Below, piece by piece: positions 44,389-63,417 of a stretch of DNA of 64,000 nucleotides. Numbering within the stretch: position 1 is the stretch's first letter; each line of letters starts with the position of its first letter. The DNA comes from Rathayibacter sp. VKM Ac-2857 (lineage in GTDB: Bacteria; Actinomycetota; Actinomycetes; Actinomycetales; Microbacteriaceae). Both the position numbers and the translations under genes were made by a program. The DNA is taken from NCBI RefSeq assembly GCF_013205025.1, contig NZ_JABMLE010000003.1, positions 434,001 through 498,000 of the forward strand, in the 5' to 3' direction. The notes under the pieces were generated by a model. That model worked only from the letters and a program-made list of their open reading frames with translations. It did no database searches and was not told the origin of the DNA.

Positions 44389-44415
44389 AAACTGACAAAA
44401 TCTCGATTTTTGGAT
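44389..44415 (-). other. dif-like 27-bp site, left copy
   Basis: AT-rich site matching 63391-63417 at 22 of 27 positions in the same orientation. On the minus strand the right arm reads TTTTGTCAGTTT, compared with TTATGTCAGTTT in the other copy. It is the more degenerate copy. Interpreted as an old recombination (Xer or tyrosine-recombinase) boundary; not proven. Confidence 0.45.
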
Positions 44416-44527
44416 GCGCAGCCTCGTTTCCCGGGAAGCGGGTCTCGTGGCGACCCTTCGAGAACGACCGTCCCGACAAGCACCCGGAAGGCCCTCGACA
44501 CCGCGAGGAGGACGGCCAACCGTGAGC

Positions 44528-44905
44528 TCAGCCTCCAGATCGTGCCGTGTCGAGCAACCAGCCGATGATCGTGGAGAGTGTCTGGGCACCAGGCGCACTG
44601 TCGAGGTCGACGAGGGCGGCGTGCGGGGCGGCTTGCACGATGATGAGCGACACATCGCCCCCGGCCTCCTCGACGGCCCTTGCATATGCCTCGCCTGACG
44701 GTCTGATGCTGTCGTACTCGGAAGTGACGATCAGGATCGGAGGCTGGCCACTTAGGTCACCATTCGCCGGGAACGCATAGGGGTCGCTGAGAACGGCTCG
44801 TCGGCCCGCGTAGTTGTGGGCGATCAACCTGAGATCGTCGGGCTCGAACACCTGATGCGGAGCGCCCTCCTTCATCCGCTGCAGCTCGTACGCCCGTTTC
44901 CGCGC
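44528..44905 (-). pseudogene. 5'-truncated alpha/beta hydrolase
   Basis: Only the C-terminal ~125 residues remain. LRLIAHNYAGRRAVLSDPYAFPANGDLSGQPPILIVTSEYDSIRPS with Asp, and QAAPHAALVDLD with His, match the end of the esterase at 33703 (LNYVDGDQDALDDPYAFPAG). HGG and GxSxG motifs are missing. Similarity stops at about 44905, where another truncated gene begins on the other strand. Confidence 0.75.
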
Positions 44906-45143
44906 CGCGCCGCCGGCCCCCGGCACGCGCTTCGTGCTCACCGTCGGCGAGCTGGAGGTCGACCGTGTCCTCGATATCCCGTCGCTCTACACGGCCGCCC
45001 ACGAGTTCACCGGCCTCCTCCGACAGCTCGGCTTCGACGTCACGCTCCTCACCGGCCCGCTCGGCCACGACTACTTCTCCTCCCACGTTCTCTTCGCACA
45101 CGGGCTCCGAATGCTGCTCGGCACCGGGGGCGAGCTCCGCTAA
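44905..45143 (+). pseudogene. 5'-truncated esterase-like gene
   Basis: About 75 C-terminal residues (TRFVLTVGELEVDRVLD, FTGLLRQLGFDVTLLTGPLGHDYFSSHVLFAHGLRMLLG). The GLGFDV-GH-F pattern resembles the end of a CE1/esterase-D-like alpha/beta hydrolase with its catalytic His in GPLGHDY. No start or N-terminal half exists; it abuts the reverse-oriented relic at 44528-44905. Family call is tentative. Confidence 0.5.
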
Positions 45144-45411
45144 CCCGTCGGCGTTCCGTCGCGGTCGGCGTTCACCGCGCTCACACCGCCCTCCTCCTGA
45201 AGATCCCCCTGCCTGACAGCCTCGGCGCCCCTACGACGGTACCCGCGAGCGTCCAGCGCATCGTGGTCGGCCGGAGCCGTCGAGACCCCCGAGCGCGGAC
45301 CTCGGGCCGGACTGTAATGAGAGCGTGCTGAGGAGGTAATGCGCTTGAAACACCCGGGGCCTAGGTTCGTTCACGACCCGGCTTCGACCGGGACTTTCCC
45401 GCCGCACTTCC

Positions 45412-45424
45412 GCTACAACGTCGC
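45412..45424. promoter_or_regulatory. ROK-type operator candidate, distal
   Basis: GCTACAACGTCGC matches the proximal palindrome at 45493-45505 in 11 of 13 positions; 81 bp separate them. Confidence 0.5.
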
Positions 45425-45492
45425 ATGATTCGGTCAACCCGGAGCCCGCGACTTACGCACCCCCTCCATCCCCTCGCCTCGCGCCCATTTCT

Positions 45493-45505
45493 GCTACAAA
45501 GTAGC
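45493..45505. promoter_or_regulatory. ROK-type operator candidate, proximal
   Basis: GCTAC-AAA-GTAGC is a perfect palindrome flanked by TTTC and GAAA, 28 bp before the ABC operon's first ATG. The ROK regulator at the end of the operon is the obvious candidate binder. Confidence 0.58.
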
Positions 45506-45533
45506 GAAATTAGCCCGGACCCCAGGAGCCCCC

Positions 45534-46820
45534 ATGAAGCGCACCTCCCGCCTCGCCCTAGTCGGCGGTGCCGTCGCCGTGACGGCCCTCGTCCTCACCG
45601 GTTGCGGCCGCTCGGCCGACGTCGGCACCGCCGCCGCCGTCACCACGGTCGACGACTCCGCGGCTACCGGCACCGTCACCCTCTGGGCGCCGGACGGGGA
45701 CGCCACGCAGCTCGACGCGGTCCTCGCCGACTACCGGGCCGAGAATCCGGACCTCGATCTCGAGATCACTCTGGTCCCCTCCGATGAGTACAACACCAAG
45801 CTGCAGACCGCCGTCGCCGCGGGCACCGCGCCCGACATCGCCTTCCTCTACACGGAGGCGCAGGCGCAGTTCCTCGCCTCCGACGCCTTCGCGCCGGTGC
45901 CCGACGGTCTGGTCGATTCGAGCAGCTTCTTCGAGGGCTCCTGGGAGGCCGGCGAGCGCGACGGCGCGACCTACTCCGTGCCCTGGTACGCCTACACGCG
46001 GGTGCTGATCTACCGCTCCGACTTCGCGGACGCGGGCGGGGTGAGCGCCCCGACGACGTGGGACGAGACCATCCCGTTCTTCGAGGGACTTGAAGCGGGC
46101 GGGGCCGAGAGCGGTTACGGCGCGGAGGTCGGCTGGGACACCTACAACGGCCAGGCCCTCGTGACCTACGCGCACCAGGCGGGTGCCGATCTGCTGAGCG
46201 AGGACGGCTCGGAGTGGACCCTGGACACCCCCGAGATGCTCGCGGCGGCCGAGTACAACGCGTCCGTCTTCACCGACGGCGTCTCCTCGCCCGACACCCC
46301 GCAGTTCCTCGACGCCCAGCCGTACCTCGTGTCCGGGCGGACGGGCTCGATGATCAGCGGCCCCTGGGTCGTCGCGACTCTCGACACGACCGCCGGGGAG
46401 GAGGGCTGGACCGACTCGCACATCGCGACCGCCGTCCTCCCCGCCGGCCCCGACAGCGGCTCCGGGCAGCTCGCCGGAGGCAGCTGGGGAGTGACCGCCG
46501 GCTCCGACAACGCCGCGTCGGCGTGGAAGGTCGTCCGTGCCACGGCGGAGCAGGACACCCAGATCGCGCAGTACGAGGCGGCCGGCAGCATGCCCGCCGT
46601 GGTCGACGCGTGGCAGGACCCGGTGATCGCCGACCAGCCCCTGCTCGACGCGTTCTTCGAGCAGCTCCAGAACGTCGAGCCGCTGCCCGCCGTCAGCACG
46701 TGGACGCAGGTGTCGACGCTGCTCGGCCAGGAGATGGAGAAGGTCGCCCGGGGCAAGGAGTCGGCCGCCGACGCCCTCGCCGCCGTGCAGAAGCAGGCCG
46801 ACTCGATCGGCACGGAGTGA
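45534..46820 (+). CDS. Sugar ABC transporter substrate-binding lipoprotein (CUT1)
   Basis: 428 aa. Signal peptide with lipobox LTGC (C24) and then a type-2 binding fold starting TVTLWAPDGDATQLDAVLADY. APDIAFLYTEAQAQFL and SMISGPWVVATLD are typical of the UgpB/MalE family. Anchored on the outer face of the membrane and delivering a sugar or oligosaccharide to the two permeases that follow. AGGAG (45522-45526) precedes the ATG. No ATPase gene is in the cluster, so a shared MsiK-type ATPase elsewhere is likely. Confidence 0.92.
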   Translation: MKRTSRLALVGGAVAVTALVLTGCGRSADVGTAAAVTTVDDSAATGTVTLWAPDGDATQLDAVLADYRAENPDLDLEITLVPSDEYNTKLQTAVAAGTAPDIAFLYTEAQAQFLASDAFAPVPDGLVDSSSFFEGSWEAGERDGATYSVPWYAYTRVLIYRSDFADAGGVSAPTTWDETIPFFEGLEAGGAESGYGAEVGWDTYNGQALVTYAHQAGADLLSEDGSEWTLDTPEMLAAAEYNASVFTDGVSSPDTPQFLDAQPYLVSGRTGSMISGPWVVATLDTTAGEEGWTDSHIATAVLPAGPDSGSGQLAGGSWGVTAGSDNAASAWKVVRATAEQDTQIAQYEAAGSMPAVVDAWQDPVIADQPLLDAFFEQLQNVEPLPAVSTWTQVSTLLGQEMEKVARGKESAADALAAVQKQADSIGTE

Positions 46821-46824
46821 CGAC

Positions 46825-47757
46825 GTGGCTCTGACCGCCCTCGCCGGCCGGTCCGCGGCGGGAGCGGTGCGCGAGCGCCGCTCCCGCCACGGGCGCCACT
46901 CCGGCATCGCCTGGCTCTTCCTCGCCCCCTTCGCCGTGATCTTCGTGGTGTTCACGGCCATCCCCGTGCTCGCCTCGATCGGCATGAGCGTCACCGACAT
47001 CCGCGGTGCCGATCTGCAGCAGCCGTTCGGCGTCGAGTTCACCGGGCTCGCGAACTACGCGACCCTCCTGAGCGACGCCGCGTTCCTCCGCGCGCTGCTC
47101 AACACCCTGTACTTCGTCGTCATCGGCGTGCCCGTCACGATGCTCGTGGGCTTCGTGCTCGCGCTCGCGCTCGACTCGGGCATCCGGCGCCTGCGCGGTG
47201 TCTTCCGCGCCCTCTTCTACGCCCCCGTGGTGACCAACATCGTCTCCGTGGCACTGATCTGGCAGTACGCGTTCAACCAGAACGGAACCGTCAACGAGGT
47301 GCTCGGCGCGATCGGCTTCGCCGGACCCAACTGGCTCGGCGACGAGCAGCTCGCCATGCCCGTGGTGATCCTCCTCGGCATCTGGCGCAACTTCGGCACG
47401 GCGATGCTCCTGTTCCTCGCCGGACTGCAGTCGGTGCCGGAGGACGTGCACGAGGCCGCCTCGCTCGACGGGGCGAGTCCGTGGCGTCGCCTGGTCTCGA
47501 TCACCGTGCCGCTGCTGATGCCCACCACGCTGCTGATCTCGGTGCTGCTGTCGGTCTTCTTCCTCCAGGTCTTCGATGAGCCGTACCTGCTCACGGGCGG
47601 CGGTCCGGTCGGCTCGACCGAGTCGATGGCGCTGTACACCTATCGCCAGTTCGGCTTCGGCAACATCGGCCTGTCCTCGGCCGCCTCCTTCCTCCTCCTG
47701 CTCATCGTCGTGCTCGTCAGCGCGCTGCAGTTCCGTCTGCTGAGGTCCCGCTCATGA
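46825..47757 (+). CDS. Sugar ABC transporter permease 1 (MalF/UgpA-like)
   Basis: 310 aa with six predicted helices. The coupling loop EAASLDGASPWRRLVSITVPLLMP is the EAA motif contacting the ATPase. GTG 46825 lies 4 nt after the binding-protein stop. It forms a heterodimer with the next gene product, whose start overlaps its stop (ATGA). Confidence 0.93.
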   Translation: MALTALAGRSAAGAVRERRSRHGRHSGIAWLFLAPFAVIFVVFTAIPVLASIGMSVTDIRGADLQQPFGVEFTGLANYATLLSDAAFLRALLNTLYFVVIGVPVTMLVGFVLALALDSGIRRLRGVFRALFYAPVVTNIVSVALIWQYAFNQNGTVNEVLGAIGFAGPNWLGDEQLAMPVVILLGIWRNFGTAMLLFLAGLQSVPEDVHEAASLDGASPWRRLVSITVPLLMPTTLLISVLLSVFFLQVFDEPYLLTGGGPVGSTESMALYTYRQFGFGNIGLSSAASFLLLLIVVLVSALQFRLLRSRS

Positions 47758-48662
47758 CCGTCACCACCGCCCCCCGGCCCACCGCGACGGCTCCCGCGCC
47801 GCCGCGTCCGCCCGCCCGGGAGACCGGCACGCGCGCCTCGGCCGAGCGCCGGCGCCACCTCGTGCTCTACCCGCTGCTCGCGCTGCTCGCGGCGATCACC
47901 CTGCTGCCCTTCGTCTGGGTGATCTCCGGGTCGCTGCGCACGACGGCCGACATCAGCGCCGACCCCGGTGCGTGGCTCCCGTCGGCGGTGACGCTCGACA
48001 ACTTCGCCCGGCTCTTCTCGCAGGCGGGCTTCACCGGCTACCTCGCCAACAGCCTGATCGTCGCCGGAGTCGTCGTGGCCGGGAACGCGGTCGCCGCGGC
48101 CGCCGCCGGCTACGCGCTCGCCAAGCTCGACTTCGCGGGCAAGCGGTTCGCCATGGCCGCGGTGCTGATCTCGCTGATGATGCCGTTCTCGGCGGTCTTC
48201 GTGCCGCAGTTCGTGGTCACGGTGCGCCTGGGACTGGTGAACACGCTGGCCGGCATCGCGCTGCCCTCGCTCGTGCTGCCGATCTCGATCTTCATCGTCC
48301 GCCAGTTCGCGGAGAGCGTCCCGGAGGAGCTCCTCGAGGCCGCGCGGATCGACGGAGCGAGCGAGCTGCGGATCTTCGCCCAGGTGTTCCTGCCGCTCGC
48401 GGGGCCCGCGCTCGCGACGGTGACGATCATGTCGTTCCTCGCCGCGTGGAACAACTTCATCTGGCCGCTGCTGGTCGCGCAGGACGCCTCGACCTACACG
48501 CTCCCGGTGGGCCTGGCGGCCACGCGGCAGGCGGCGCAGAACGTCACCGACTACGGGCTCGTGCTGGCCGGCGCGGTGGTCGTGATGCTGCCGGTGCTGG
48601 TGCTCTTCCTGCTCCTGCAGCGCTACTTCGTGCAGGGTATCGTCGCGACGGGCCTGAAATGA
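47754..48662 (+). CDS. Sugar ABC transporter permease 2 (MalG/UgpE-like)
   Basis: 302 aa, six helices after a Pro/Arg-rich cytoplasmic N-terminus. EAA loop EAARIDGASELRIFAQVFLPLAGP. Its start overlaps permease 1, and its stop overlaps an in-frame ATG at 48659 leading into the ROK gene, so transport and regulator genes are one unit. Confidence 0.93.
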   Translation: MTVTTAPRPTATAPAPPRPPARETGTRASAERRRHLVLYPLLALLAAITLLPFVWVISGSLRTTADISADPGAWLPSAVTLDNFARLFSQAGFTGYLANSLIVAGVVVAGNAVAAAAAGYALAKLDFAGKRFAMAAVLISLMMPFSAVFVPQFVVTVRLGLVNTLAGIALPSLVLPISIFIVRQFAESVPEELLEAARIDGASELRIFAQVFLPLAGPALATVTIMSFLAAWNNFIWPLLVAQDASTYTLPVGLAATRQAAQNVTDYGLVLAGAVVVMLPVLVLFLLLQRYFVQGIVATGLK

Positions 48663-48760
48663 GCGGATCGATCGGGGGTGGTGCCCGTGTCACGCAGGAT
48701 CTGCTCACCGACGGACAGGGCGTGCCGGGGCCCGGCACCGCGGACGTGGGGGAGGAGCGC

Positions 48761-49918
48761 ATGAGCGCAGGAGTGGCGCCGAGCACCCTCCGTCGACTCA
48801 ACTCGGGAGTCGTGCTGCGCGCCCTCGCCGAGCACGAGGACCCGGTGACCATGGCCGTCCTGGTCAATGAGGTGCAGCTCTCCCGCCGCACGGTCGAGCT
48901 CATCCTGGTGCGCCTCAGCGAGGAGGGCTGGGTCGAGGAGACCGCACCCGATCCAGCCCGTTCCGACGTCGGCCGGCCGCCGCGCACGTTCCGCTTCCGT
49001 GCTGACCGTGCCCTCGTCGCGGCCGTCCGCATCGACACCGACTATGCGTCGGCGGTCGTCTGCGACATCCGCGGGCGGATCCTCGGCCGCGACCTGCGCC
49101 CCCTGCGGGACTACCACGCGCCCGAGGCCACGGTCGAGGACGCGGTCCTCGCGATCGAGGCGGCGGTCGCCGACTCCGGCCGGTCGAGCGATCTGATCCG
49201 CGCCGGTGCCATCGCGGCCGGTGGCGCGATCGACGAGGACGGCGTCGTCACGCGGCTCGTCAACTCCCCGCGCTGGAGCGGCTTCGCGGTCGCGGAGGTC
49301 GTCTCCGCTCGGCTCGGAGTGCCGGTCTTCGCCGACAACGACGCCAACCTGGCCGCCCTCGCCGAGCGGTGGCGCGGCGTGGGCGCGCACTCCAGGACCT
49401 CCGCCTGGTGCATCTTCGGCGACCGAACCGGTATCGGCCTCGTCATCGACGGGTCCGTGCACCGCGGCTTCCGCGGAGCGGCCGGCGAGGTCGTCGAGGC
49501 CGGTGCGCTCGGTGCGAGCCGGATGGAGAACACCCCGTTCGGCCGGCTGAGCTCCCCGCGCCGCGAGCATCGTGCGAGTGCCCTCCTGGCCGTCGAGGCC
49601 GCGCGCGCGGGCGACCCGGAGGCACTGCGCGAGCTCGACGCCTTCGTCGAGCACCTCGCCGGCCTGCTCTCGGCTCTGGCGTGGACGGTCTCGCCCGACC
49701 TGTTCGTCCTCGGCGGCGGGCTCGAGGACGCGGCCGACATCCTCCTCCCGCGGCTCGTCGACGCGCTTGCAACGCTGCGCACGCTCGACGTTCCCATCCG
49801 CTCCACAGCGCTCGGCACCGACGCACCCCTACTGGGCGCGGTGAAGTTCGCCCTCGACCGCATGGACGGCGCCTTCTACGGCCCCACCCTCACCGCCGCC
49901 GCCGAGCGCGCGGTCTGA
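48761..49918 (+). CDS. ROK-family transcriptional regulator
   Basis: 385 aa. N-terminal winged HTH (TMAVLVNEVQLSRRTVELILVRLSEEGWV) with the linker GRPPRTFRF, then a ROK domain with AGAIAAGGAIDEDGVV, PVFADNDANLAALAE and GDRTGIGLVIDGSVHRGFRGAAGEV. The usual ROK CxCGxxGC zinc motif is absent, replaced by ENTPFGRLSSPR, so it is not a typical sugar kinase. ATG 48761 with GGGGGAGGAG is preferred to ATG 48659. It probably binds the GCTAC-type sites ahead of the ABC operon. Confidence 0.87.
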   Translation: MSAGVAPSTLRRLNSGVVLRALAEHEDPVTMAVLVNEVQLSRRTVELILVRLSEEGWVEETAPDPARSDVGRPPRTFRFRADRALVAAVRIDTDYASAVVCDIRGRILGRDLRPLRDYHAPEATVEDAVLAIEAAVADSGRSSDLIRAGAIAAGGAIDEDGVVTRLVNSPRWSGFAVAEVVSARLGVPVFADNDANLAALAERWRGVGAHSRTSAWCIFGDRTGIGLVIDGSVHRGFRGAAGEVVEAGALGASRMENTPFGRLSSPRREHRASALLAVEAARAGDPEALRELDAFVEHLAGLLSALAWTVSPDLFVLGGGLEDAADILLPRLVDALATLRTLDVPIRSTALGTDAPLLGAVKFALDRMDGAFYGPTLTAAAERAV

Positions 49919-49971
49919 CCTCGTCCTCTTCCCCACCCCGCGCGTTCCTCGCGCGGTTCGACAGGAGCACC

Positions 49972-51498
49972 ATGCCTGAGACCACCACGCCCGTCGACGT
50001 CCTGCTCATCGGGAGCGGGATCATGGGGGCCGCGCTCGCCCGCGGACTCCGCGACGCCGACCCCGCACTCCGGATCCTGATGATCGACGGAGGCCCCGCC
50101 GTCGGCTCGGTCGCCGGCCTCCATCTGCACGACAGCGAGGAGCCCGCGATCTGGAGCCGCTACAACCAGCGGGTGGCCACCGGCGTGCAGGGCATGTACA
50201 CCGGGGCGGATGTGACCCCCGACATCACCGACGAGCTGCGCTCGGTCGCGCCCGGGATGTACAACCTCTCGGCACTGGGCGAGGACGCCGCGGCGATGCC
50301 CGCAGGCGCGGTTTCTTGGAACGTCGGCGGGATGGGCGTGCACTGGACCGCAGCGACCCCCTGGCCGGCGGGCGACGAGGTCTTCGACGGCGGCGACGCC
50401 GCGCAGTGGGAGCAGGACCTCGATCGGGCGCGCCGGCTGCTCGACGTCCACCCGTCCCCGCTCGGACCCACCGCCCCGGGACAGGTCGTCCTCGACGTCC
50501 TCGAGGACGCCTTCGGCGAGGTGAGCGCGCCGGGACGGGGCCCGCAGCCGATGCCGATGGCCGTCGCGGGCAACCCCACTGGGCCGCTCCTGCGCACCGG
50601 GCCGAGCCGGATCTTCCCGCCGATCGCGCACGGCGGCGACGACGCGTTCGAGCTGCGGCCGGGGACCCTCGCGGTCGCGATCCGCCGCGACGGCGACCGC
50701 GCCGTCGGGGTCCGGGCGCGCGAGATCGCCACCGGTCGCGAGTACGACATCGACGCGCGCACGACCGTGGTCTGCGCCGATGCGGTCCGGACGCCGCAGC
50801 TCCTCTTCGCCTCGGGCATCCGCCCGGCCGCGCTCGGCCAGTACCTGAACGAGCACGCCTTCGTCACCGCTCGCGTGGTGATGGACCTCGAGCGCTTCGC
50901 CCTCGCCGGGGGGTCGCTGCCGCGTCTGCGCGAGGGCGAGTTCGCGACCGACTCGCTCTGGCTGCCTCAGAACGGCGGCGCTCAGCCCTTCCACGGTCAG
51001 ATCATGAACACCGTCTTCATCGACGAGCAGCACGAGCCGTTCGCCTACTCCGTCGGTCTCTCCTTCTACACCCCCGTCGAGTCGCGGCCGGAGAACCGGC
51101 TTGTGTTCTCCGAGGACGAGGTGGACGTCACCGGCCTGCCCCGGCTCCGGGTCGACTTCGAGTACAGCGATCGCGACCGCGAGCTGATCGCGGCGGCCCA
51201 GGAGCGCGTCCGCGAGATCGCCGAACGCTTCGGCGCCTTCGACCCGTCGACCGAATGCGCCGTCCTCGCGCCGGGATCCTCCCTGCACCTGACCGGGACC
51301 GTCCGGTCCGGAGACACCGATGACGGTGCGAGCGTCTGCGACCCGACCGGCCGGGTCTGGGGCGTCGAGGGCCTCTATCTCGCCGGCAACGGCGTGATCC
51401 CGACGCCGATCGTCTGCAACGCGACGCTGACCGGCACGATCACCGCCGTCCGGGCGACCCGAGCCGTGCTAGCCGAACTCGCGGCCGCGCGAGTCTGA
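49972..51498 (+). CDS. GMC-family FAD oxidoreductase (bacterial pyranose/C-glycoside oxidase-like)
   Basis: 508 aa. FAD-binding GSGIMG at 14-19, an AVSWNVGGMGVHWTAATPWP segment, and a catalytic His/Asn pair H439 (LHLTGT) and N483 (IVCNATLTG). Length and these motifs fit the bacterial pyranose-2-oxidase-like group, members of which oxidise C3 or C2 of sugars or C-glycosides. No signal peptide. It follows the sugar ABC importer and its regulator, with GACAGGAG before ATG. The 3-keto product would suit the TIM-barrel isomerase two genes on (inference). Confidence 0.85.
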   Translation: MPETTTPVDVLLIGSGIMGAALARGLRDADPALRILMIDGGPAVGSVAGLHLHDSEEPAIWSRYNQRVATGVQGMYTGADVTPDITDELRSVAPGMYNLSALGEDAAAMPAGAVSWNVGGMGVHWTAATPWPAGDEVFDGGDAAQWEQDLDRARRLLDVHPSPLGPTAPGQVVLDVLEDAFGEVSAPGRGPQPMPMAVAGNPTGPLLRTGPSRIFPPIAHGGDDAFELRPGTLAVAIRRDGDRAVGVRAREIATGREYDIDARTTVVCADAVRTPQLLFASGIRPAALGQYLNEHAFVTARVVMDLERFALAGGSLPRLREGEFATDSLWLPQNGGAQPFHGQIMNTVFIDEQHEPFAYSVGLSFYTPVESRPENRLVFSEDEVDVTGLPRLRVDFEYSDRDRELIAAAQERVREIAERFGAFDPSTECAVLAPGSSLHLTGTVRSGDTDDGASVCDPTGRVWGVEGLYLAGNGVIPTPIVCNATLTGTITAVRATRAVLAELAAARV

Positions 51499-51532
51499 CC
51501 CTCTTCCATCCGCTGCTCCCCAGGAGGACCCC

Positions 51533-52144
51533 GTGAACATCGACCGCCTCGCCACCCGCTACGAGATCGCCCTGCCCGCCTGGATCGAGGACGCCGTGCG
51601 CGACGTCCCGGAGGTCCTGCCCGAGCGCGAGGACCGCATGGCCCTCGTGCACGCGCTCGCCGACCGCAACTTCCGCGAGGGCAACGGCGGTCCGTTCGCC
51701 GCGATCGTCGTGGAGCGCGACTCCGGCCGCGTGGTCTCGGTGGGCGTGAACGTGGTGCTGGGCAGCGGGGTCTCCTCCGGGCACGCGGAGGTCACCGCGC
51801 TGGGTCTCGCGCAGACCGCCCTCGGCTCGTGGGACCTGGGCGGCGAGGGGCTGCCGGCGCACGAGCTGGTCGTGAACTGGCGGCCGTGCGTGCAGTGCTA
51901 CGGAGCGACGCTGTGGTCGGGTGTGCGGCGCCTGGTGGTCGCGGGGTCGGGTCCGGAGCTGGAGGAGATCTCCACGTTCGACGAGGGTCCGATGCGCGAG
52001 GACTGGGCCGCGCAGTTCGAGGCGCGCGGCATCGAGGTCGTCGACGGCGTGCTCCGCGACGAGGCGCTGGAGGTCTTCCGCGCCTACCGCGCGCACGTGG
52101 ACGCGGGCGAGGTGCTCGTCTACAACGCCCGCGCCGCCGACTGA
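51533..52144 (+). CDS. Nucleoside/cytidine deaminase-like zinc hydrolase
   Basis: 203 aa. Zinc motifs GHAEVTAL (His, catalytic Glu) and RPCVQCYGA (two Cys) place it in the CMP/dCMP-guanine deaminase superfamily; GGPFAAIVVERDSG is the substrate strand. GTG 51533 with AGGAGGA. Its role beside a sugar oxidase and isomerase is unclear: it may act on a nucleoside or an amino-sugar derivative. Confidence 0.85.
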   Translation: MNIDRLATRYEIALPAWIEDAVRDVPEVLPEREDRMALVHALADRNFREGNGGPFAAIVVERDSGRVVSVGVNVVLGSGVSSGHAEVTALGLAQTALGSWDLGGEGLPAHELVVNWRPCVQCYGATLWSGVRRLVVAGSGPELEEISTFDEGPMREDWAAQFEARGIEVVDGVLRDEALEVFRAYRAHVDAGEVLVYNARAAD

Positions 52145-52191
52145 GCCGTCGCCGCTCCCGTCTCCGCTCCACTCGACTCGAAAGGCCCGCC

Positions 52192-53145
52192 ATGCTCCGC
52201 CGCTCCCAGTTCGCCCTCAACGCCATCCAGTGGATCAACGTGAAGGCCGACCCCGCCGACCCGACGAGCGAATCGCTCTGGCGCTTCGCCGACCCGGACT
52301 TCCGGGACGACTACCCGGACGTGCTCCGCGAGATCCGCGAGTCCGGCTTCGGCGCCACGATGCTGGAAGTCCTCGCGACGCAGACCCTGCAGGACTACGC
52401 CCGGATGATCGAGGACTCCGGCCTCGCGCTCGCCCCCGGCTACGCCTCGATCGCCCTCCCCGAGGACCACGGCCGCAGCTTCCAGCGCGGCTCGGCCGAG
52501 TGGATCCACTGGTTCGACGGCGTGCGCCGCAAAGCGGAGGAATCGAACTACGTCGGTCTCGACACGGTGTTCCTCGCACCGGAGGTGAGCTTCGAGCCGG
52601 GAGTGGTCCGCACGCGCGAGGCCGTGGCGGTCGGTGCCCTGTTCGACGAGGCGCGGCTCGACCGCGTGATCGAGCTCCTGGGCGATGCGGCGGAGGTGCT
52701 GCGCGCTGAGGGCGTCCGCGCCGGACTGCACAACCACGTCGGGACCTGGGTCGAGACGGAGCACGAGATCGACCGCGTGCTCGGCGCGATCGACGCCGAC
52801 CTGCTCGGCGCCTCGTTCGACGTCGGCCACCTGGTCTGGGCGGGGATCGACCCGATCGCGATCCTGCGGCGCTACTCCGACCGGCTCGTGGATCTGCACA
52901 TCAAGGACCTCGATCTCGGCATCGCGGAGGCCAGCCGGGCGACGCCGACCGCCTACGACCGCGCCACCGACAGCGGGATCTTCCTCGAGCCCGGCCTCGG
53001 CGGCATCGATCTCGACGGAGTGCTGGCCGCCCTGCCCGGGGAATTCGGCGGATGGATCATCGTCGAGGTCGACCGGGCGAGCATGCCGCCCACGGACAGC
53101 GCCAAGGTCAGCGCGACGTGGGTCGATCGGGTGACTGCGCACTGA
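52192..53145 (+). CDS. Sugar phosphate isomerase/epimerase-like TIM barrel protein
   Basis: 317 aa, AP-endonuclease-2-like fold. Metal-site segments: GLHNHVGT, ASFDVGHLVWAG, DLHIKDLDLG and the final IIVEVDRA. Such proteins isomerise or epimerise ketoses, dehydrate inosose, or eliminate 3-keto-glycosides. AAAGG precedes ATG 52192. It is the last gene of the ABC/ROK/GMC unit. No DUF6379-type partner, as in known C-deglycosidases, is seen next to it. Confidence 0.87.
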   Translation: MLRRSQFALNAIQWINVKADPADPTSESLWRFADPDFRDDYPDVLREIRESGFGATMLEVLATQTLQDYARMIEDSGLALAPGYASIALPEDHGRSFQRGSAEWIHWFDGVRRKAEESNYVGLDTVFLAPEVSFEPGVVRTREAVAVGALFDEARLDRVIELLGDAAEVLRAEGVRAGLHNHVGTWVETEHEIDRVLGAIDADLLGASFDVGHLVWAGIDPIAILRRYSDRLVDLHIKDLDLGIAEASRATPTAYDRATDSGIFLEPGLGGIDLDGVLAALPGEFGGWIIVEVDRASMPPTDSAKVSATWVDRVTAH

Positions 53146-53279
53146 CGGGCCGATCGAGCGCCGGTCCGCGGGCGACGTCACTCACCTCGCCCCTGGGCTG
53201 TTCCGCGAGCCCCCTCCACGACGACCGGCATGCCCACGTGCTTCAACCCATCGGGCTCACCGCCCCCGTCGACGACGAG

Positions 53280-55844: not shown

Positions 55845-55870
55845 GAGACTCCATCGTCGATTCGACAGCG

Positions 55871-55920
55871 CTAGCGCGCGCTACCTGAGGACAGTATCGC
55901 GGAGGACTAGCGCGCGCAAC
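55871..55920. promoter_or_regulatory. LacI-3 operators, MFS side
   Basis: CTAGCGCGCGCTAC (55871-55884) and CTAGCGCGCGCAAC (55907-55920) are near-palindromes 36 bp apart in the promoter of the module B transporter. Confidence 0.7.
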
Positions 55921-56031
55921 TGATCTGCCGCGGAAACCTCGGTCGCCGACACCCGCGAGCTCTCAGGCGTCGATCAGGACCGCTCCGCCTCGCTCAACGA
56001 CGCGAGGCGGCGGCCATCGGGGTGCGGCCGG

Positions 56032-57021
56032 TCAGGAGGATTCGCGCTCGATCAGGGACACCTGCTGGTCGGGGACCGTCGCGGGTGCGGACTCGCCCTT
56101 CGCGGCGGCGAGGGCGAGCTGTGCGAAGTAGCGTCCCAAGCCGGCGTCATCGACGTGCACAGAGGTGAGCGCCGGCAGGAACACGCGCGCCAGCGGCGAG
56201 TCGTCGTGACCGACGACGGCGAGGTCTGCCGGGACGGCGAGCCCGAGTCGAACGGCGGCGCCGACCACCAGCGCGGCGATGTCGTCGTTGTAGGCCACGA
56301 CGCCGGTGATCCCGGCACGGTGCCACTGGGCAACCAGCTCCTTCACGTGATCACCGTCGACGTCGACCCGCTCGAGGCCGAGGATCCCGCTCGCAAGCGC
56401 CGCCGCCGCCGCGACCGCGAACCGCGACGCGACGAGCTCGCCGAGGCGCGGGTCGGAAGAGGCCGCGAAGACGATCCGGCGATGCCCCCTCGCAAGAAGG
56501 TGCTCGACCTGCAGCCGAGGCCCTCCCGTGAAGGAGAGCTCGCCTCGCTCGGTGCGGTCCTCCGGTGCGGGGATCACGACGGGCACCCCGGCTGCGCGGA
56601 TCTCCTCGACCCGCTCGGACGTGAACGGCATCATCCCCATCACGACGTCCGGCTGCAGCGTCTCCCAGAGCGGCCGCGCCTTGCCGCCGGCATGCGGTGT
56701 CATCGTGACCAGGGAGTAGCCGGCCTCGTCGAGCGCGATCGACGCCTCGTCGACGTGCCGGCGCATGCTGTACTCCATCGGCCAGTCGGGCAGCACCAGG
56801 AGGATGATGCGGCTCCGGCCGCGAGCCAGCGCTTGCGCGGCGAGGTGCGGGCGGTAGCCCAGGCGACGGGCGGCATCGAGGACCCGGGTCTTGGTCGCCT
56901 CGGAGATCGTCTGACCGGGGGTGTCGTTCAGGACGAAGCCGACGGTCGCCCGCGAGACGCCGACAGCACGCGCGATGTCGGCCGCGGTCACCCGCTTCTC
57001 CGTCGCCGTCGTGTTCGTCAT
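56032..57021 (-). CDS. LacI-family regulator 3 (rhamnoside module B)
   Basis: 329 aa. HTH with recognition segment SRATVGFVLN, differing from SKTTVSYVLN of regulators 1 and 2 in K/R, T/A, S/G and Y/F, and effector domain opening LLVLPDWPM. ATG 57021. It lies between the transporter and GH78-2 genes, each of which has two CTAGCGCG-type sites instead of the ACTGATTC-type of module A. The changed helix together with the changed operator supports specific control of module B. Confidence 0.92.
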   Translation of the reverse strand: MTNTTATEKRVTAADIARAVGVSRATVGFVLNDTPGQTISEATKTRVLDAARRLGYRPHLAAQALARGRSRIILLVLPDWPMEYSMRRHVDEASIALDEAGYSLVTMTPHAGGKARPLWETLQPDVVMGMMPFTSERVEEIRAAGVPVVIPAPEDRTERGELSFTGGPRLQVEHLLARGHRRIVFAASSDPRLGELVASRFAVAAAAALASGILGLERVDVDGDHVKELVAQWHRAGITGVVAYNDDIAALVVGAAVRLGLAVPADLAVVGHDDSPLARVFLPALTSVHVDDAGLGRYFAQLALAAAKGESAPATVPDQQVSLIERESS

Positions 57022-57106
57022 GCCGTTCCGTCCCCAGTCGATGAGCAGCCTACGGCCTGTCCACCCGAGCTGCTCCGGCGTCGGCAGCTGTCGGGGAGCG
57101 GCCCCG

Positions 57107-57158
57107 GTTGCGCGTGCTAGCGAACCGAAGTAGCCTCTCGACAACTAGCCCGCGCTAG
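57107..57158. promoter_or_regulatory. LacI-3 operators, GH78-2 side
   Basis: GTTGCGCGTGCTAG (57107-57120) matches the reverse complement of 55907-55920 at 13 of 14 bases. CTAGCCCGCGCTAG (57145-57158) is a palindrome with one mismatched pair. Both lie between regulator 3 and GH78-2, whose ATG is 34 bp further on. Confidence 0.72.
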
Positions 57159-57192
57159 CGCCGTCTGCTGCCGACAATGGAGTCCTCCTCTG

Positions 57193-59685
57193 ATGCTCGT
57201 TCCCTCGTCCGCCGTCTTCATCGCACCCCTCTCGACCACCGGCGACGCCGACGAACCCGCGTCGTATCTGCGACAGGAGTTCGACGTCGCCGAGCTGCCC
57301 GTTCGAGCGACGCTGCGCAGCACCGCAGTCGGGCTGATCGAGCCGCATCTGAACGGCGACATCGTCGGCGACGAGGTCCTCGCACCGGGGTGGACCTCGT
57401 ACCGGCACCGCCTCGTGGTCAGCAGTCACGACGTCACCTCCCTCGTCGTGATCGGCGGGAACGCCGTCGGCGCCGTCCTCGGCGAGGGCTGGGCGGTGGG
57501 CCGCCTGGGCTGGGAGGAGAAGCGGCGCCATTACTCGGACAAGCCGGCCGCCTGGCTGCAGCTCGAGCTCGAGTACTCCGACGGCCGCACCGAGATCATC
57601 GGCAGCGGGACGGACTTCCGCGCGGCGACCGGCGGCGTGCGGGCGAACAGCATCTACGACGGCGAGGAGTACGACGCCCGTCTCGAACCGATCGGCTGGG
57701 ACAGCGCCGGCTTCGACGACTCCGCGTGGGGCGACGTCGAGCGCGTCGACTGGCCCCTCGACGCGCTTGTCGAGCCGATCGCACCTCCGATCCGCCGGAT
57801 CGAGGAACTGGCCCCGGTCGAGATCCTGACCACCCCCGCCGGCCGCACCGTCGTCGACTTCGGCCAGAACATCTCCGGCTGGGTCCGCCTGTCCGTCAGC
57901 GGACCCGAGGGCACGACGATCACCCTCCGCCACTCCGAGGTGCTGATCGGCGGCGAGGCCGACTTCGAGACCATCCGCACCGCCGCCGCGACCGACCGGT
58001 TCACGCTGCGCGGCGAGGGTACCGAGACATGGGAGCCGCGCTTCACGTTCCACGGCTTCCGCTACGTCGAGATCGACGGCTGGCTGGGGGAGCTCGACGC
58101 GTCCGCCCTGCGCGCCGTCGTGGTCCACTCCGACATGACCCGCACGGGCTGGCTCGAGACGTCGGAGCCGCTGCTGAACCAGCTGCACTCCAACGCCGTC
58201 TGGTCGATGCGCGACAACTTCGTCGGAGTCCCCACCGACTGCCCGCAGCGGGACGAGCGCCTGGGCTGGACGGGCGACATCAACGCCTTCGCGCCGACGG
58301 CCGCGTTCCTCTACGACGTGCGCGGAGTGCTCGGCTCGTGGCTGCGCGACCTCGCCGTCGAGCAGGAGGAGAAGGGCTTCGTGCCGTGGGTCGTCCCGGA
58401 CGTCCTCTCCATGCCGTCCTCGCCGACGGCGCTCTGGAGCGATGTCGCGGTGAGCCTGCCCTGGGCGCTGTACCGCGAGTACGGCGACGAGCGGATCCTG
58501 GTCGACGCCTACGACTCGATGACGGCGTTCATCCGGCAGGTCGCCGGTCTCCTCGACGAGAACGGGCTGTGGAGCAGGGGCTTCCAGTACGGGGACTGGC
58601 TCGACCCGGACGCGCCGAACGACAATCCCGCCGGTGGCAAGACCGACCGCTACCTCGTCGCGGCCGCCTACCTCTGCCGCACGACCCGCGAGATGACGGA
58701 CACCGCCTCCGTGCTCGGCCGCACCGCCGAAGCCGAGGAGTTCCGCGCTCTCGCGCAGCGGGTGCACGCGGCCTTCCTCGACGAGTTCGTGTCGAAGACC
58801 GGGCGCGTGGTGAACGAGACCGCGACCGCGTACGCCCTCGCGATCACCTTCGACCTCCTCGACGACGCCCAGAAGGCGCACGCCGGCGATCGGCTCGCCG
58901 ACATCGTCGCCCGCGCCGGCTACCGGATCTCGACCGGCTTCGCCGGGACGCCGCTCGTCACGGACGCACTCTCCGCCACCGGCCATCTCGACGAGGCGTA
59001 CCTGCTGCTGCTCGAGACCGGCTGCCCCTCCTTCCTCTACCCGGTGACGATGGGCGCGACCACGATCTGGGAGCGCTGGGACTCCGTCCGCCCCGACGGC
59101 ACGATCAATCCCTCGGGCATGACCTCGCTCAACCACTACGCGCTCGGCGCCGTCGTCGACTGGATGCACCGCACCATCGGCGGCGTGACCGCCATCGAGC
59201 CCGGGTACCGCCGGATGCGCATCGCTCCGCTGCCCGGGGGAGGACTCACCTCGGCCACCCTGCTGCACACGACCGCGCAGGGAGAGGTCCGCGTCGCCTG
59301 GCGCCTCGAGGGCGGAACCGTCACCTTCGACGTGACCGTCCCCGACGGCACCACCGCCGAAGTGCTGCTCCCGCTGAGCACTGATCGCCAGAGCATCGAC
59401 GTCCCGGCAGGGGAGCACCACTGGAGCTACGACGTCGATCCGGCGGAGGTCCGCGGCTCGTTCGATCTCGACTCGACCCTCGGCCAGATCGCCGGAGACG
59501 CCGAGGCCTGGCGTCGGTTCACCGAGGTCTTCACGCGCTCCTTCCCGGGCGTCCCGCTCGACGGGCGCGCTCCGGAGGCGGCGGGCATGCCTGTCCGCAC
59601 CCTGCTCGACTACCTCCCCGGCGTCTCCGACGAGTTCCGCGCCGACCTGACCACCTCTCTCACTTCGACCGGAGCCTCCGCATGA
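57193..59685 (+). CDS. GH78 alpha-L-rhamnosidase 2
   Basis: 830 aa. TVVDFGQNISGWVRLSVSGP and CPQRDERLGWTGDINAF (D354, E355) with GATTIWERWDS and MTSLNHYALGAV. The protein aligns from end to end with GH78-1 (34673-37144), including the C-terminal helical tail. No signal peptide: cytoplasmic removal of terminal rhamnose. Its stop overlaps the GH3-2 start (ATGA), so the two enzymes are made together. Confidence 0.95.
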   Translation: MLVPSSAVFIAPLSTTGDADEPASYLRQEFDVAELPVRATLRSTAVGLIEPHLNGDIVGDEVLAPGWTSYRHRLVVSSHDVTSLVVIGGNAVGAVLGEGWAVGRLGWEEKRRHYSDKPAAWLQLELEYSDGRTEIIGSGTDFRAATGGVRANSIYDGEEYDARLEPIGWDSAGFDDSAWGDVERVDWPLDALVEPIAPPIRRIEELAPVEILTTPAGRTVVDFGQNISGWVRLSVSGPEGTTITLRHSEVLIGGEADFETIRTAAATDRFTLRGEGTETWEPRFTFHGFRYVEIDGWLGELDASALRAVVVHSDMTRTGWLETSEPLLNQLHSNAVWSMRDNFVGVPTDCPQRDERLGWTGDINAFAPTAAFLYDVRGVLGSWLRDLAVEQEEKGFVPWVVPDVLSMPSSPTALWSDVAVSLPWALYREYGDERILVDAYDSMTAFIRQVAGLLDENGLWSRGFQYGDWLDPDAPNDNPAGGKTDRYLVAAAYLCRTTREMTDTASVLGRTAEAEEFRALAQRVHAAFLDEFVSKTGRVVNETATAYALAITFDLLDDAQKAHAGDRLADIVARAGYRISTGFAGTPLVTDALSATGHLDEAYLLLLETGCPSFLYPVTMGATTIWERWDSVRPDGTINPSGMTSLNHYALGAVVDWMHRTIGGVTAIEPGYRRMRIAPLPGGGLTSATLLHTTAQGEVRVAWRLEGGTVTFDVTVPDGTTAEVLLPLSTDRQSIDVPAGEHHWSYDVDPAEVRGSFDLDSTLGQIAGDAEAWRRFTEVFTRSFPGVPLDGRAPEAAGMPVRTLLDYLPGVSDEFRADLTTSLTSTGASA

Positions 59686-61928
59686 CGCACGACATCAGCA
59701 CCCTCACCCTCGAGCAGAAGGCCTCGCTGCTGTCAGGCCACGACTTCTGGACGACGAAGGCGATCGACGAGGCGGGCATCCCCGCGGTCACGCTCACCGA
59801 CGGACCGCACGGCGTGCGCAAGCAGGACGGCGCCGCCGACCACCTCGGCATCAACGACGCGCTGCCCTCGACCTGCTTCCCGCCCGCCGTCGCCGTCGGC
59901 TCGAGCTGGGACCCGGAGGTCGCTGCGCAGCTCGGCGCCGCGGTCGGCCGCGAGGCCCTCGCGCTCGGCGTCTCGGTCGTGCTCGGCCCGGGCGTGAACA
60001 TCAAGCGCTCACCGCTGTGCGGCCGGAACTTCGAGTACTACTCCGAGGACCCGCTCCTCTCGGGAGTACTCGGCGCCGCCCACGTCACCGCGATGCAGGA
60101 GGTCGGCCCGGGCGCATCGGTGAAGCACTTCGCCGCGAACAACCAGGAGCACGAGCGGATGCGCATCAGCGCCGACGTCGACGAGCGCACCCTGCGAGAG
60201 ATCTACCTCCCCGCCTTCGAGCGCGTGGTGAAGGAATCGGCGCCCGCCACCGTGATGGTCTCCTACAACAAGGTCAACGGCGTCTACGCCTCCCACAACC
60301 CGTGGCTGCTCACCGAGGTGCTGCGCGAGGACTGGGGCTTCGAGGGCGCCGTCGTGTCCGACTGGGGGGCGGTGAGCGACCGCGTCGCCGGCGTCGCCGC
60401 GGGGATGGACCTCGAGATGCCGGGCAGTGGCGGTGCCACCGACCAGCAGATCGTCGACGCCGTCCGCTCCGGCCGGCTCTCCGAGGACGCCGTCGACACC
60501 GCGGTCCGCCGCGTCCTCGCGCTGACCGACCTGGTCCGCGAGGCGACGGGGGAGTTCGACGTCGACGCGCACCATGCCCTCGCGCGGACGCTCGCCGGCG
60601 ACTCGGTCGTGCTGCTCAAGAACGACGACGGCGTGCTGCCCATCACTCCGACGGGTCGGATCGCGGTGATCGGCGCCTTCGCCGTCGAGCCGCGCTTCCA
60701 GGGCGGCGGCAGCTCCCACCTCAACCCCACTCGCGTCGACGTGCCGCTCGAAGCGATCCGGGACCTCGCGGTCGAACGGGGCATCGCCATCGAGCACGCC
60801 GCCGGCTTCGTGCTCGGCGACGACGCGGAAGCGGACGCGCGCCGTGCCGAAGCGGTCGAGACCGCCTCCCGCGCCGACGTCGCGATCGTCTTCGCCGGCC
60901 TCGGCGACAGCGAGGAGTCGGAGGGCTTCGACCGCAGCCATCTCGACCTGCCCCAGGCGCAGATCGACGTCATCCGGGCGGTCGCAGCGACCTCGGCCCG
61001 CAGCGTCGTCGTGCTCTCGAACGGAGGCGTGGTCTCGCTCGAGGGCTGGCACGACGACGTCGACGCGATCCTCGAGGGCTGGCTGCTCGGCCAGGCCGGC
61101 GGAGCAGCGATCGCCGACGTGCTCTTCGGAGCAGTGAACCCCTCCGGCCACCTCGCCGAGACGATCCCGCTGCGACTGCAGGACACGTCGAGCTGGAGCA
61201 ACTTCCCCGGCGAGCAGGGACACGTCCGCTACGGCGAAGGCGTCATGGTCGGCTACCGCCACTTCGAGACCGCCGAGGTCGCGGTGCGCTACCCGTTCGG
61301 GCACGGCCTCAGCTACACCGCCTTCCGCACGACGCAGCTGAGTGCGGTCCCGACCAGCGACGACTCCGTCCGAGTGTCGGTCACGGTCGAGAACACCGGA
61401 ACGGTCGCCGGCAAGCACGTCGTCCAGGTGTACGTGGCCACGCAGACCGGACCGGTCCGCCGGCCCGTGCGCGAGCTACGTGCGTTCTCGAAGGTCGCGC
61501 TCGAGCCCGGCGAGTCGCGCACCGTCGAGCTCGACCTCGACCGACGTGCCTTCGCGTACTGGGACATCGAGCTCTCGACGTGGGTCGTCCCCGGCGGCGA
61601 GTACGCGATCCAGATCGGGGAGAACTCCTCCGACATCGTCGCCGAGGAGTCGATCACGCTCACGGGCGACGTCATCCGACGAGTGCTGACGCTGGACTCC
61701 ACCGTCGGCGACTGGTTCGCCCACCCGACCGTCGGGCCCGCCGTGCAGCAAGGCCTCGCCGCCGGCATGAGCGCCGAGCAGTCGGCTCATGCGGAGGAGA
61801 ACACCGACGCGCTGCGCATGGTCGAGTCGATGCCGATGCAGCAGTTCCTCGCGTTCATCGGCGGCGCCATCCCGATGGAGACCCTCGAGCAGCTCATGGC
61901 CCTGAGCGCGGAGGAGGCGGCCGCATGA
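59682..61928 (+). CDS. GH3 beta-glucosidase 2
   Basis: 748 aa. SVKHFAANNQEHER, nucleophile D227 in VVSDWGAV, C-domain GLGDSEESEGFDRSHL, and FnIII-like end (AFAYWDIELSTWVVPGGEYAIQIG). Homologous over its full length to GH3-1 but adjacent to its rhamnosidase rather than divergent. No signal peptide. Its stop overlaps the next gene (ATGA). Together with GH78-2 it would strip rhamnose then glucose from rutinose- or neohesperidose-type units (inference). Confidence 0.94.
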   Translation: MTHDISTLTLEQKASLLSGHDFWTTKAIDEAGIPAVTLTDGPHGVRKQDGAADHLGINDALPSTCFPPAVAVGSSWDPEVAAQLGAAVGREALALGVSVVLGPGVNIKRSPLCGRNFEYYSEDPLLSGVLGAAHVTAMQEVGPGASVKHFAANNQEHERMRISADVDERTLREIYLPAFERVVKESAPATVMVSYNKVNGVYASHNPWLLTEVLREDWGFEGAVVSDWGAVSDRVAGVAAGMDLEMPGSGGATDQQIVDAVRSGRLSEDAVDTAVRRVLALTDLVREATGEFDVDAHHALARTLAGDSVVLLKNDDGVLPITPTGRIAVIGAFAVEPRFQGGGSSHLNPTRVDVPLEAIRDLAVERGIAIEHAAGFVLGDDAEADARRAEAVETASRADVAIVFAGLGDSEESEGFDRSHLDLPQAQIDVIRAVAATSARSVVVLSNGGVVSLEGWHDDVDAILEGWLLGQAGGAAIADVLFGAVNPSGHLAETIPLRLQDTSSWSNFPGEQGHVRYGEGVMVGYRHFETAEVAVRYPFGHGLSYTAFRTTQLSAVPTSDDSVRVSVTVENTGTVAGKHVVQVYVATQTGPVRRPVRELRAFSKVALEPGESRTVELDLDRRAFAYWDIELSTWVVPGGEYAIQIGENSSDIVAEESITLTGDVIRRVLTLDSTVGDWFAHPTVGPAVQQGLAAGMSAEQSAHAEENTDALRMVESMPMQQFLAFIGGAIPMETLEQLMALSAEEAAA

Positions 61929-63397
61929 TCGGACGGCGCCGCGTGTTCCTGACCGGCGCGGCCGGCAACTGGGGGCGCGCGGTGCTGGAGGCGTTCCGCG
62001 AGCGGGAGGACGAGTTCGAGGTCGTCGCCCTGGTCCTCCCGACGCCGAAGGACACCGCAGCGATCCGGCGCTTCGAGGACATGGAGAACCTCGAGGTCGT
62101 GTTCGGCGACCTCACCGACTACTCCGCGGTCGGGCGATGCGTGCGAGGCGCCGACGTCGTGCTGCACATCGGAGCGATCGTCTCGCCCTTCGCCGACGAC
62201 CACCCGGAGCTCGCTCACCGGGTGAACGTGGGGAGCATCCGGAACATCATCCGCGCAGTGAAGGCGCAGCCGGATCCGTCGGCGATCGCGGTGGTCGGTA
62301 TCGGCACCGTCGCCGAGACGGGTGACCGCACTCCTCCGCAGCACTGGGGCAGAGTCGGCGACCCGCTGCGCGTCTCCCGGTACGACGAGTACGGGCAGAG
62401 CAAGGTCATCGCCGAGAAGGAGCTCGTCGACTCGGGCCTGCCGCGCTGGACATGGCTGCGGCAGACCGGGATCCTCCACGCCGGGATGCTCGAGATCCGC
62501 GACCCGATCATGACCCACTCGACCCTCGGGGGAGTGATGGAGTGGGTGACCGCCGAGGACGCCGCCCGGCTGATGGTGGGAGTCTCTGAGGCCGACGTCC
62601 CCGACGAGCTGTGGGGCGGGATCTTCGACATCGGCGGCGGCGAGCAGTGGCGGCTGACGAACTGGCAGCTGCAGACCCGCATCGCTGCCGCCCTCGGCGT
62701 CGCCGATCCGCGGGCCTGGTACGACCGCGACTGGTTCGCCACCCGCAACTTCCACGGCCAGTGGTACACCGACTCCGACCGTCTGAACGAGCTCGTCCCC
62801 TTCCGCCGGGACACTCCCGACGCGGCGCTGGCACGTGCCGTCGCCGCGAACCCCCGCCTCAGAGCCGCTGGTCGAGTGCCGCCCTGGATCGTGAAGAACC
62901 TGGTGATGAAGCCGCTCACCCTGAAGCACCGGGGCACCATGGGCTATCTGCGCGACGGCGACGAGCAGGCGATCGCCGCCTACTTCGGATCGCGGGCGGA
63001 CCACGACGCGATCGGCGACTGGAGCACCTTCTGGCCGCCACGCCCCAGCCGCGTCCCGGTGCAGCTCGCCCACGGCTACGACGAGAGCCTCCCGGCCGAC
63101 CGATGGGACAAGAGAGTGCTCGCGGGTGCGGCGGAGTTCCGCGGAGGAGTACTCCTCTCGGACACCGTGCGGCCCTTGGACGCGGCCACTCCGCTGCACT
63201 GGCAGTGCGCCTTCGGCCACGAGTTCTCCGGAAGCGCCCGTCTCGTCCTCATCGCCGGGCACTGGTGCCCGGTCTGTATCCGCGACGTCGCAGGCTACCC
63301 CGCACAAGCGGAGCGCAACCGCTTCCTCGCCCAGCTCGACGAGCTTGCACCGCCACCCTCGACGAGATCGGACCAGGAGCACCTTCACCAAAACTGA
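61925..63397 (+). CDS. Extended SDR (NAD-dependent epimerase/dehydratase) with C-terminal zinc-knuckle-like segment
   Basis: 490 aa. FLTGAAGNWG Rossmann motif at 8-17, DVVLHIGAIVSPF, and the active-site YDEYGQSK with Tyr-x-x-x-Lys. The SDR part ends near 290. The C-terminal part is unusual and has CAFGH (C428, H432) and CPVC (C448, C451), a likely single zinc site of treble-clef type. Third gene of the GH78-GH3 unit by ATGA overlap, so probably acts on the released sugar or aglycone. The last codons overlap the right dif-like site. Confidence 0.82.
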   Translation: MIGRRRVFLTGAAGNWGRAVLEAFREREDEFEVVALVLPTPKDTAAIRRFEDMENLEVVFGDLTDYSAVGRCVRGADVVLHIGAIVSPFADDHPELAHRVNVGSIRNIIRAVKAQPDPSAIAVVGIGTVAETGDRTPPQHWGRVGDPLRVSRYDEYGQSKVIAEKELVDSGLPRWTWLRQTGILHAGMLEIRDPIMTHSTLGGVMEWVTAEDAARLMVGVSEADVPDELWGGIFDIGGGEQWRLTNWQLQTRIAAALGVADPRAWYDRDWFATRNFHGQWYTDSDRLNELVPFRRDTPDAALARAVAANPRLRAAGRVPPWIVKNLVMKPLTLKHRGTMGYLRDGDEQAIAAYFGSRADHDAIGDWSTFWPPRPSRVPVQLAHGYDESLPADRWDKRVLAGAAEFRGGVLLSDTVRPLDAATPLHWQCAFGHEFSGSARLVLIAGHWCPVCIRDVAGYPAQAERNRFLAQLDELAPPPSTRSDQEHLHQN

Positions 63398-63417
63398 CAT
63401 AATATCAATTATCGGAT
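63391..63417 (-). other. dif-like 27-bp site, right copy
   Basis: On the minus strand it reads CCGATAAT, a 5-6-nt centre, and TTATGTCAGTT, the arm-spacer-arm layout of bacterial dif sites bound by XerC and XerD. It overlaps the stop codon of the SDR gene. The left copy is 19.0 kb away at 44389. Function inferred only from sequence form. Confidence 0.5.

Follow-up and report, generated by a model that had tools for sequence, protein, structure and literature searches.

Genes and sites of the 19-kb block

The DNA analysed here is a 64,000-nucleotide stretch of contig C3 of Rathayibacter sp. VKM Ac-2857 (genome G000), hereafter called the window. It contains a 19-kb block, L-R, lying between two dif-like sites (L and R), and an island whose left end carries the relic of a conjugation gene. 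The features are as follows.

25346..26230, plus strand: left end of the island, conjugation-gene relic (T4CP/TraG C-terminus) and DUF4913; counterpart on contig C7 of Rathayibacter sp. Leaf185 at 92% identity
26231..44388: further cargo, on the left of L, including separate rhamnosidase, GH3 and LacI-like genes (the last named by eye)
44389..44415, minus strand: L, decayed dif-like site, AAACTGACAAAATCTCGATTTTTGGAT; 21/27 to host dif, PWM 29.3
44416..63390: the 19 kb enclosed by L and R, GC 70.8%
44528..44941, minus strand: truncated alpha/beta hydrolase, debris just inside L; C-terminal part of Abhydrolase_3 (profile positions 121-208 of 210)
44934..45143, plus strand: second claimed truncated gene; no Pfam match
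45534..53145, plus strand: unit A; sugar-binding protein, two ABC permeases, ROK protein, GMC oxidoreductase, deaminase, xylose-isomerase-like protein
53280..63397: unit B; DUF1349, MFS and LacI (minus strand), alpha-L-rhamnosidase, GH3 enzyme and NAD-dependent epimerase-like protein (plus strand)
63391..63417, minus strand: R, well-kept dif-like site, AAACTGACATAATATCAATTATCGGAT; 24/27 to host dif, PWM 44.1
63418..64000: right outer flank; 94% identical to G005 from R on, continuing to 68967 on the contig

The two sites were found at the positions originally predicted, in one orientation and identical at 22/27 bases (5 mismatches), and both match the host dif as listed. On the minus strand, R reads CCGATAA-TTGATA-TTATGTCAG, and L consists of an XerC-type arm CCAAAAA, the spacer TCGAGA and an XerD-type arm TTTTGTCAG. 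After R and L, the best identity to the host-dif 27-mer in the rest of the window was 16, and the top identity in dinucleotide shuffles of the window (n = 60) was 18. With a PWM built from 22 sites, R being in the training set and L outside it, the next score in the window was 7.9 at 19689, outside the island, and no third site was found at the island's left end (25.3 kb); the dinucleotide-shuffle maximum was 12.6, and 531 kb of mononucleotide-shuffled sequence gave no score >13. Each site lies just 3' of a gene reading towards it, and the last gene of unit B runs into R, whose XerD-type arm is the source of its TGA stop (63395-63397).

The spacers of L and R (TCGAGA and TTGATA) are unlike at 2/6 bases and the L arms are decayed, so that present-day excision of L-R is unlikely. 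According to PMC13141974, excision requires direct orientation and high spacer identity; L-R is direct but its spacers are unlike, and by this rule the block is expected to be fixed now.

A Pfam scan recovered both predicted gene sets, namely the sugar ABC/oxidase unit (A) and the rhamnosidase/GH3/LacI unit (B). None of the 14 called L-R genes matched a recombinase family, in agreement with the claim that no integrase lies inside, and the same scan detected no phage and no conjugation genes among them. Judged from the Pfam families, the cargo would serve rhamnoside and sugar catabolism. Two abutting truncated genes had also been proposed near L; the one at 44528-44941 was confirmed by its Abhydrolase_3 match, and the one at 44934-45143 found no Pfam counterpart.

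Several further observations were made around the block. Two rhamnosidase/GH3 sets with LacI-type genes, at 34673-40718 and 56032-61928, lie one on each side of L with ~70% DNA identity, and further stretches similar to them (73-74%) are present on contigs C2 and C5. Two 239-codon genes 4 kb apart (15735-16454 and 20385-21104) are similar in their first 40 residues, and the second matches HIRAN. Short repeats, represented by 21090-21268 (mostly intergenic) and L047:19636-19800, occur in many copies in 40 kb of G005. We also considered a tRNA-anchored island and rejected it: the tRNA-Phe called by ARAGORN at 24338-24410 lies wholly within a 462-codon DctM-family transporter gene (23887-25275) and is probably spurious, and its 15- and 18-base ends were not repeated in the 84 kb examined.

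The block and its flanks in relatives

Comparison with G005, a single-contig relative, gave 94% identity rightward from the first base of R (63391) over 5.6 kb, and no collinear match was obtained left of R until the relic at 25.4-26.2 kb. The homology thus begins at the site itself, supporting the proposal that R is a recombination junction. Between the relic, whose T4CP/TraG domain was named from its counterparts in G005 and G007, and R, G005 has 13 kb of other DNA as against 37 kb in G000, so that 26231-44388 is replaced jointly with L-R. The left flank in G006 and G007 stops at 25308-25313 and is not followed by the relic. The 94% match starting from the site was found in G005 only, indicating that no genus-wide core has its edge at R; a part of the same flank further in is 73-78% identical in G004, G008 and G009 and 88% identical on contig C5 of G000. 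A search of 15 genomes with a pattern from the outer side of R hit only its own genome, G005 giving no match at <=3 mismatches; this result favours neither side. Close to the C5 end, a decayed dif-like site (L090:17666, that is G000:C5:171666; score 19.1) lies ~50 bp from the 88% copy of this flank.

The original proposal called for a check of relatives for precise absence of 44.4-63.4 kb. No relative was found in which the two outer flanks of L-R meet at a single site, and L shared no flank with the 14 relatives among the matches listed. The proposal of an Xer-using element, or of a block between old att sites, therefore stands for R as a junction and for the dif-like nature of both sites, and lacks comparative support at L. 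Unit A (45.3-53.15 kb) is present in six relatives at 79-92% identity, always starting near 45.3 kb and with no dif-like site (<=2 mismatches) alongside, so that part of the cargo exists outside the L-R context too. For unit B, 57217-63339 is 84% identical in G003, and the match stops 52 bp short of R, the protein tails being different. The GC content is 73.5% at 1-24300, 67.1% at 26232-44388 and 70.8% at 44416-63390. Despite the latter two block means, L was rejected as a border of base composition, since the best placement of a single GC step over 36-53 kb is 45510, at the start of unit A and 1.1 kb inside L.

These results bear on whether L-R is a unit at all. A true Xer junction at R and a leftover of an older, unrelated event at L could have come to lie 19 kb apart by accident, units A and B having been assembled by ordinary recombination and deletion, with the dif-module system described below still at work in the genus. 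We regard this account as evenly poised between true and false. The start of unit A near 45.3 kb, never with L, in six relatives, the truncated gene debris between L and unit A, the decay of L and its want of a common flank among the matches listed, and the unlike spacers all fit it, and the GC step at 45510 rather than at L strengthens it while weakening the explanation that we prefer. On the other hand, L is far from chance (21/27 against a shuffle best of 18), and of the neighbouring site pairs <=50 kb apart 16/20 are direct repeats, L-R among them, and 4/20 are inverse. Movement of L-R as one unit has about an even chance at best.

The host dif and dif-like sites across the genus

The original prediction asked for the chromosomal dif and its arms. 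We located the host dif at C4:492913 as CCGATAA-TGCACA-TTATGTCAG, the single canonical dif of the genome, and the arms of R are equal to its arms. A chromosomal dif inside the window was thereby ruled out, and L-R, being on C3, is not at dif; in G005, an R-type site lies ~2 Mb from dif. In G000, 8 sites were found at <=3 mismatches, as against 0 in the reversed control. Using the pattern CCGATAAT-N5-TTATGTCAG at <=2 mismatches, we found two or more sites in 12 of 15 Rathayibacter genomes and one in the remaining 3/15, the number reaching nine in G006; among genomes of other genera and families, 13/15 had exactly one site, 1/15 three and 1/15 none. At <=1 mismatch, two or more sites were present in at least 26 of 199 Microbacteriaceae genomes. 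Every one of the 15 Rathayibacter genomes has one site with the spacer TGCACA or TGTACA, which we took as the true dif because its core is that of the dif suggested for Frankia alni, whose spacer is TGCACA (PMC3025954). By their spacers, L, R and the other non-TGCACA/TGTACA sites are extra sites and not chromosomal dif. A scan of public genomes for non-canonical spacers returned 74 stretches, 32 of them from Nocardioides, where such a spacer may be that of the normal dif. In other genera of the family, several contigs start within ~110 bases of a dif-like site (G157:C9:56, G157:C10:56, G117:C19:56, G164:C18:111 and G164:C23:111), as if the assemblies had broken at these sites.

To characterize the extra sites, we compared the flanks of 48 sites (PWM >17; stretches from 12 genomes) all-vs-all; five of the 48 were dif, and ten further dif sites of the genus were left out. 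A pair was counted as one-sided when one flank was common (>=80 bp, starting <=36 bp from the site centre) and the other was not. There were 14 one-sided pairs, R being one of these junctions, and 0 two-sided pairs; the 14 are not independent and correspond to about eight events by our reading. When all points were shifted by 0.5-2.5 kb, the ten control sets gave 0-1 one-sided and 0-9 two-sided pairs each, and 20 random control sets gave 0-1 of either kind. Judged from these flanks, the extra dif-like sites of the genus are recombination junctions at which homology breaks, and the one-sided breaks fit with strand exchange in the spacer.

A similar picture was obtained at the chromosomal dif itself. 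A ~0.7-kb flank from the XerD side of the G005 dif, used as a query against the 15 genomes with distances measured at query base 21, was found in 7/15 and not in the other 8. Its distance to dif was 9 bp in G003, G012 and G014 and 26 bp in G005, the query source, and it was displaced to 0.65 kb in G000, 9.5 kb in G008 and 83 kb in G006 (the last measured from a later query base). Each displaced junction carries a dif-like site, weak and decayed (scores 21.0, 22.2 and 26.7 in G000, G008 and G006), which precedes the flank by 9 bp in G000 and G008 and by 40 bp in G006. The XerC-side flank of G005 adjoins dif in no other genome of the genus among the matches listed, lying 2.2 kb away in G000. In G006, the first 237 bp after dif terminate in a site, and 155 bp of them are 90% identical to a DUF4913 3'-end stretch that immediately precedes a site on G006's own contig C3, where a T4CP gene is present as well. 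The displaced DNA of G006 forms an 83-kb row starting at the chromosomal dif (G006:C1:2022650-2105765; L082, L083, L084, L114 and L115, with 2090001-2095000 left out), with six dif-like sites in a single orientation; its second block is a locus with GH32 and sugar-binding-protein genes.

These comparisons also speak to the view that the extra sites are regulatory or DNA-binding sites resembling dif, with breaks arising by chance or through short-homology recombination. The motif is partly palindromic and LacI-type genes are present in several of the sampled cargo blocks, as such a role would suggest. We nevertheless consider it very improbable, given that L and R lie downstream of genes reading towards them and not upstream, that the shared arms are the same as in the host dif, that the breakpoint test gave 14 one-sided pairs against 0-1 in the controls, and that insertions are located at dif itself.

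Modules were also found away from dif. A SnoaL-like single-gene module, ~0.62 kb between two sites, occupies three places in three genomes: next to dif in G000; on C7 of G007, with T4CP and DUF4913 genes a few kb away; and in the array on C1 of G006, where the right-hand site is decayed by eye and under the score cut-off. The copies are 94-97% identical, and their outer flanks are unlike. In G011, a YhcG-type nuclease gene lies between two sites. The larger sampled blocks contain GH32, GH30, GH2, rhamnosidase and ABC transporter genes, and the sugar-use cargo loci among them span 9-21 kb. Taken together, the SnoaL module, the 14 junctions and the series at dif support the claim that the genus shifts modules at dif-like sites. 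G004 has a 3.36-kb piece with a tyrosine recombinase gene in 99.8% identical copies, one beside dif and one beside a second site (L087:9396-12758 and L112:7737-11099). No dif-like site was detected at the other end of the piece. The conjugation backbone is shared by two complete R. festucae plasmids, but these contain no site (45,025/45,025 and 50,000/51,372 bases scanned; best score 12.3), so that carriage on plasmids rests on the contigs with conjugation genes, as putative plasmids, in other genomes.

The sampled modules gave no match to a phage gene other than the G004 tyrosine recombinase. The pattern of the sites does occur in 21 IMG/VR contigs, as would be expected if dif-integrating phages (IMEX) used them for attachment and the blocks were what remains of such phages. 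We give this reading very little weight, since neither L-R nor the sampled modules contain a phage gene apart from that exception, and the cargo consists of sugar-use genes, the SnoaL protein or the YhcG nuclease.

Proposed mechanism and known module systems

Four Phage_integrase genes are present in the genome of G000, none on the window's contig. One is XerD (TIGR02225, 336 bits, over the cut-off) and one is XerC (best model TIGR02224, 310 bits, under the cut-off of 335); the two others lie on C1, on which no sites were detected, and on C5, >65 kb from its sites. We infer that XerC and XerD are most likely the acting enzymes. A dedicated tyrosine recombinase of a mobile element, with the dif-like sites as its attachment sites, could act in their place: G000 has two candidates beyond XerC and XerD, and in G004 a 300-aa Phage_integrase gene lies ~0.4 kb from dif, with the 99.8% identical 3.36-kb copy at a second site. 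Against this, close relatives (45-48%) occur in only G001, G004 and G009 of the 15 genomes, the other matches listed being at 28-34%; G006, which has nine sites, is without one; and the two candidates of G000 are placed as described above. We thus think such an enzyme unlikely to be the general one, although the gene beside dif in G004 suggests that another enzyme could act in places.

Our preferred explanation, which we hold to be probable, is that L and R are extra Xer sites of a dif-module system of the genus, in which modules join or exchange at dif-like sites, most likely through the host XerC/XerD. DNA pieces bearing a dif-like site would join to, or exchange at, further such sites, both chromosomal ones and those of contigs that contain conjugation genes, with strand exchange by XerC and XerD. 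The DNA left of R would have arrived as one or more modules with a conjugative element, of which the T4CP/DUF4913 remnant at 25.3-26.2 kb may be what is left, and L would be an older site of the same kind as R that has since decayed. The dif-module system of the genus is well supported on sequence grounds, and we favour reading the block as cargo that adjoins a genuine Xer junction at R and a fossil junction at L.

The closest known counterparts are the dif (pdif) modules of Acinetobacter, which likewise place their cargo between additional dif-like sites whose arms are conserved and whose 6-bp spacers vary (PMC6449649, PMC13141974, PMC12907356). As in Rathayibacter, the same module can be present in a chromosome and in a contig with conjugation genes, and modules form rows; as in L-R, no recombinase lies within. 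L-R is flanked on both sides by dif-like sites, as Acinetobacter modules are, L being decayed. However, standard Acinetobacter modules have inverse flanking sites with C and D modules alternating (PMC13141974), and L-R, which is direct like 16/20 of the pairs, lacks such inverse sites. Because of this orientation, we call the Rathayibacter system a variant that works like dif modules and not a member of them. The same module in different contexts with breaks at the sites was found for the SnoaL module and others, and for L-R at the R end only. The host is an actinobacterium, from another phylum, the sampled cargo includes sugar-use loci of 9-21 kb, and insertions occur at the chromosomal dif itself, on the XerD side, a place where Acinetobacter modules may insert as well.

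IMEX, such as Legionella LME-1, resemble the present case in inserting at the chromosomal dif and leaving a changed site downstream (PMC9765430); in contrast to IMEX as described there, the sampled small modules contain cargo only, with no phage gene and no conjugation gene except the DUF4913 tail in G006. L-R itself is not at dif and has no phage or conjugation genes inside, the conjugation relic being 18 kb further left.

Integron cassettes, with their attC hairpins, each hold one gene and line up in one direction at a fixed site. The modules found here resemble them in including single-gene units lined up in this way, but their sites are dif-like and not attC hairpins, and none of the four Phage_integrase genes of the genome reaches the cut-offs for an integron integrase.

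PMC6449649 (2019) describes dif modules as a characteristic feature of Acinetobacter, reports a module inserted in a Proteus prophage, and states that the origin of the extra sites was not studied in detail. Among the papers listed in searches of the open-licence PMC literature, we found no description of dif modules in actinobacteria, only those of Acinetobacter and the Proteus prophage case.

A broader reading is more tentative, and we hold it as the less probable side of the question. The dimer-resolution machinery may serve as a general means of gene capture, in which modules bearing one dif-like site are added in direct orientation next to the chromosomal dif, separating it from the flank on its XerD side, and also at secondary sites located on plasmids and islands. 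The result would be an integrase-free, integron-like store of sugar-use genes, in which the 19-kb block is a former module fixed by the decay of its left site.

Rathayibacter would provide a second, distant home of dif modules, with direct-repeat sites, in which the series of empty and filled dif sites would make the gain and loss of modules measurable. Furthermore, it would link Xer recombination with how sugar-use genes have spread among these bacteria.
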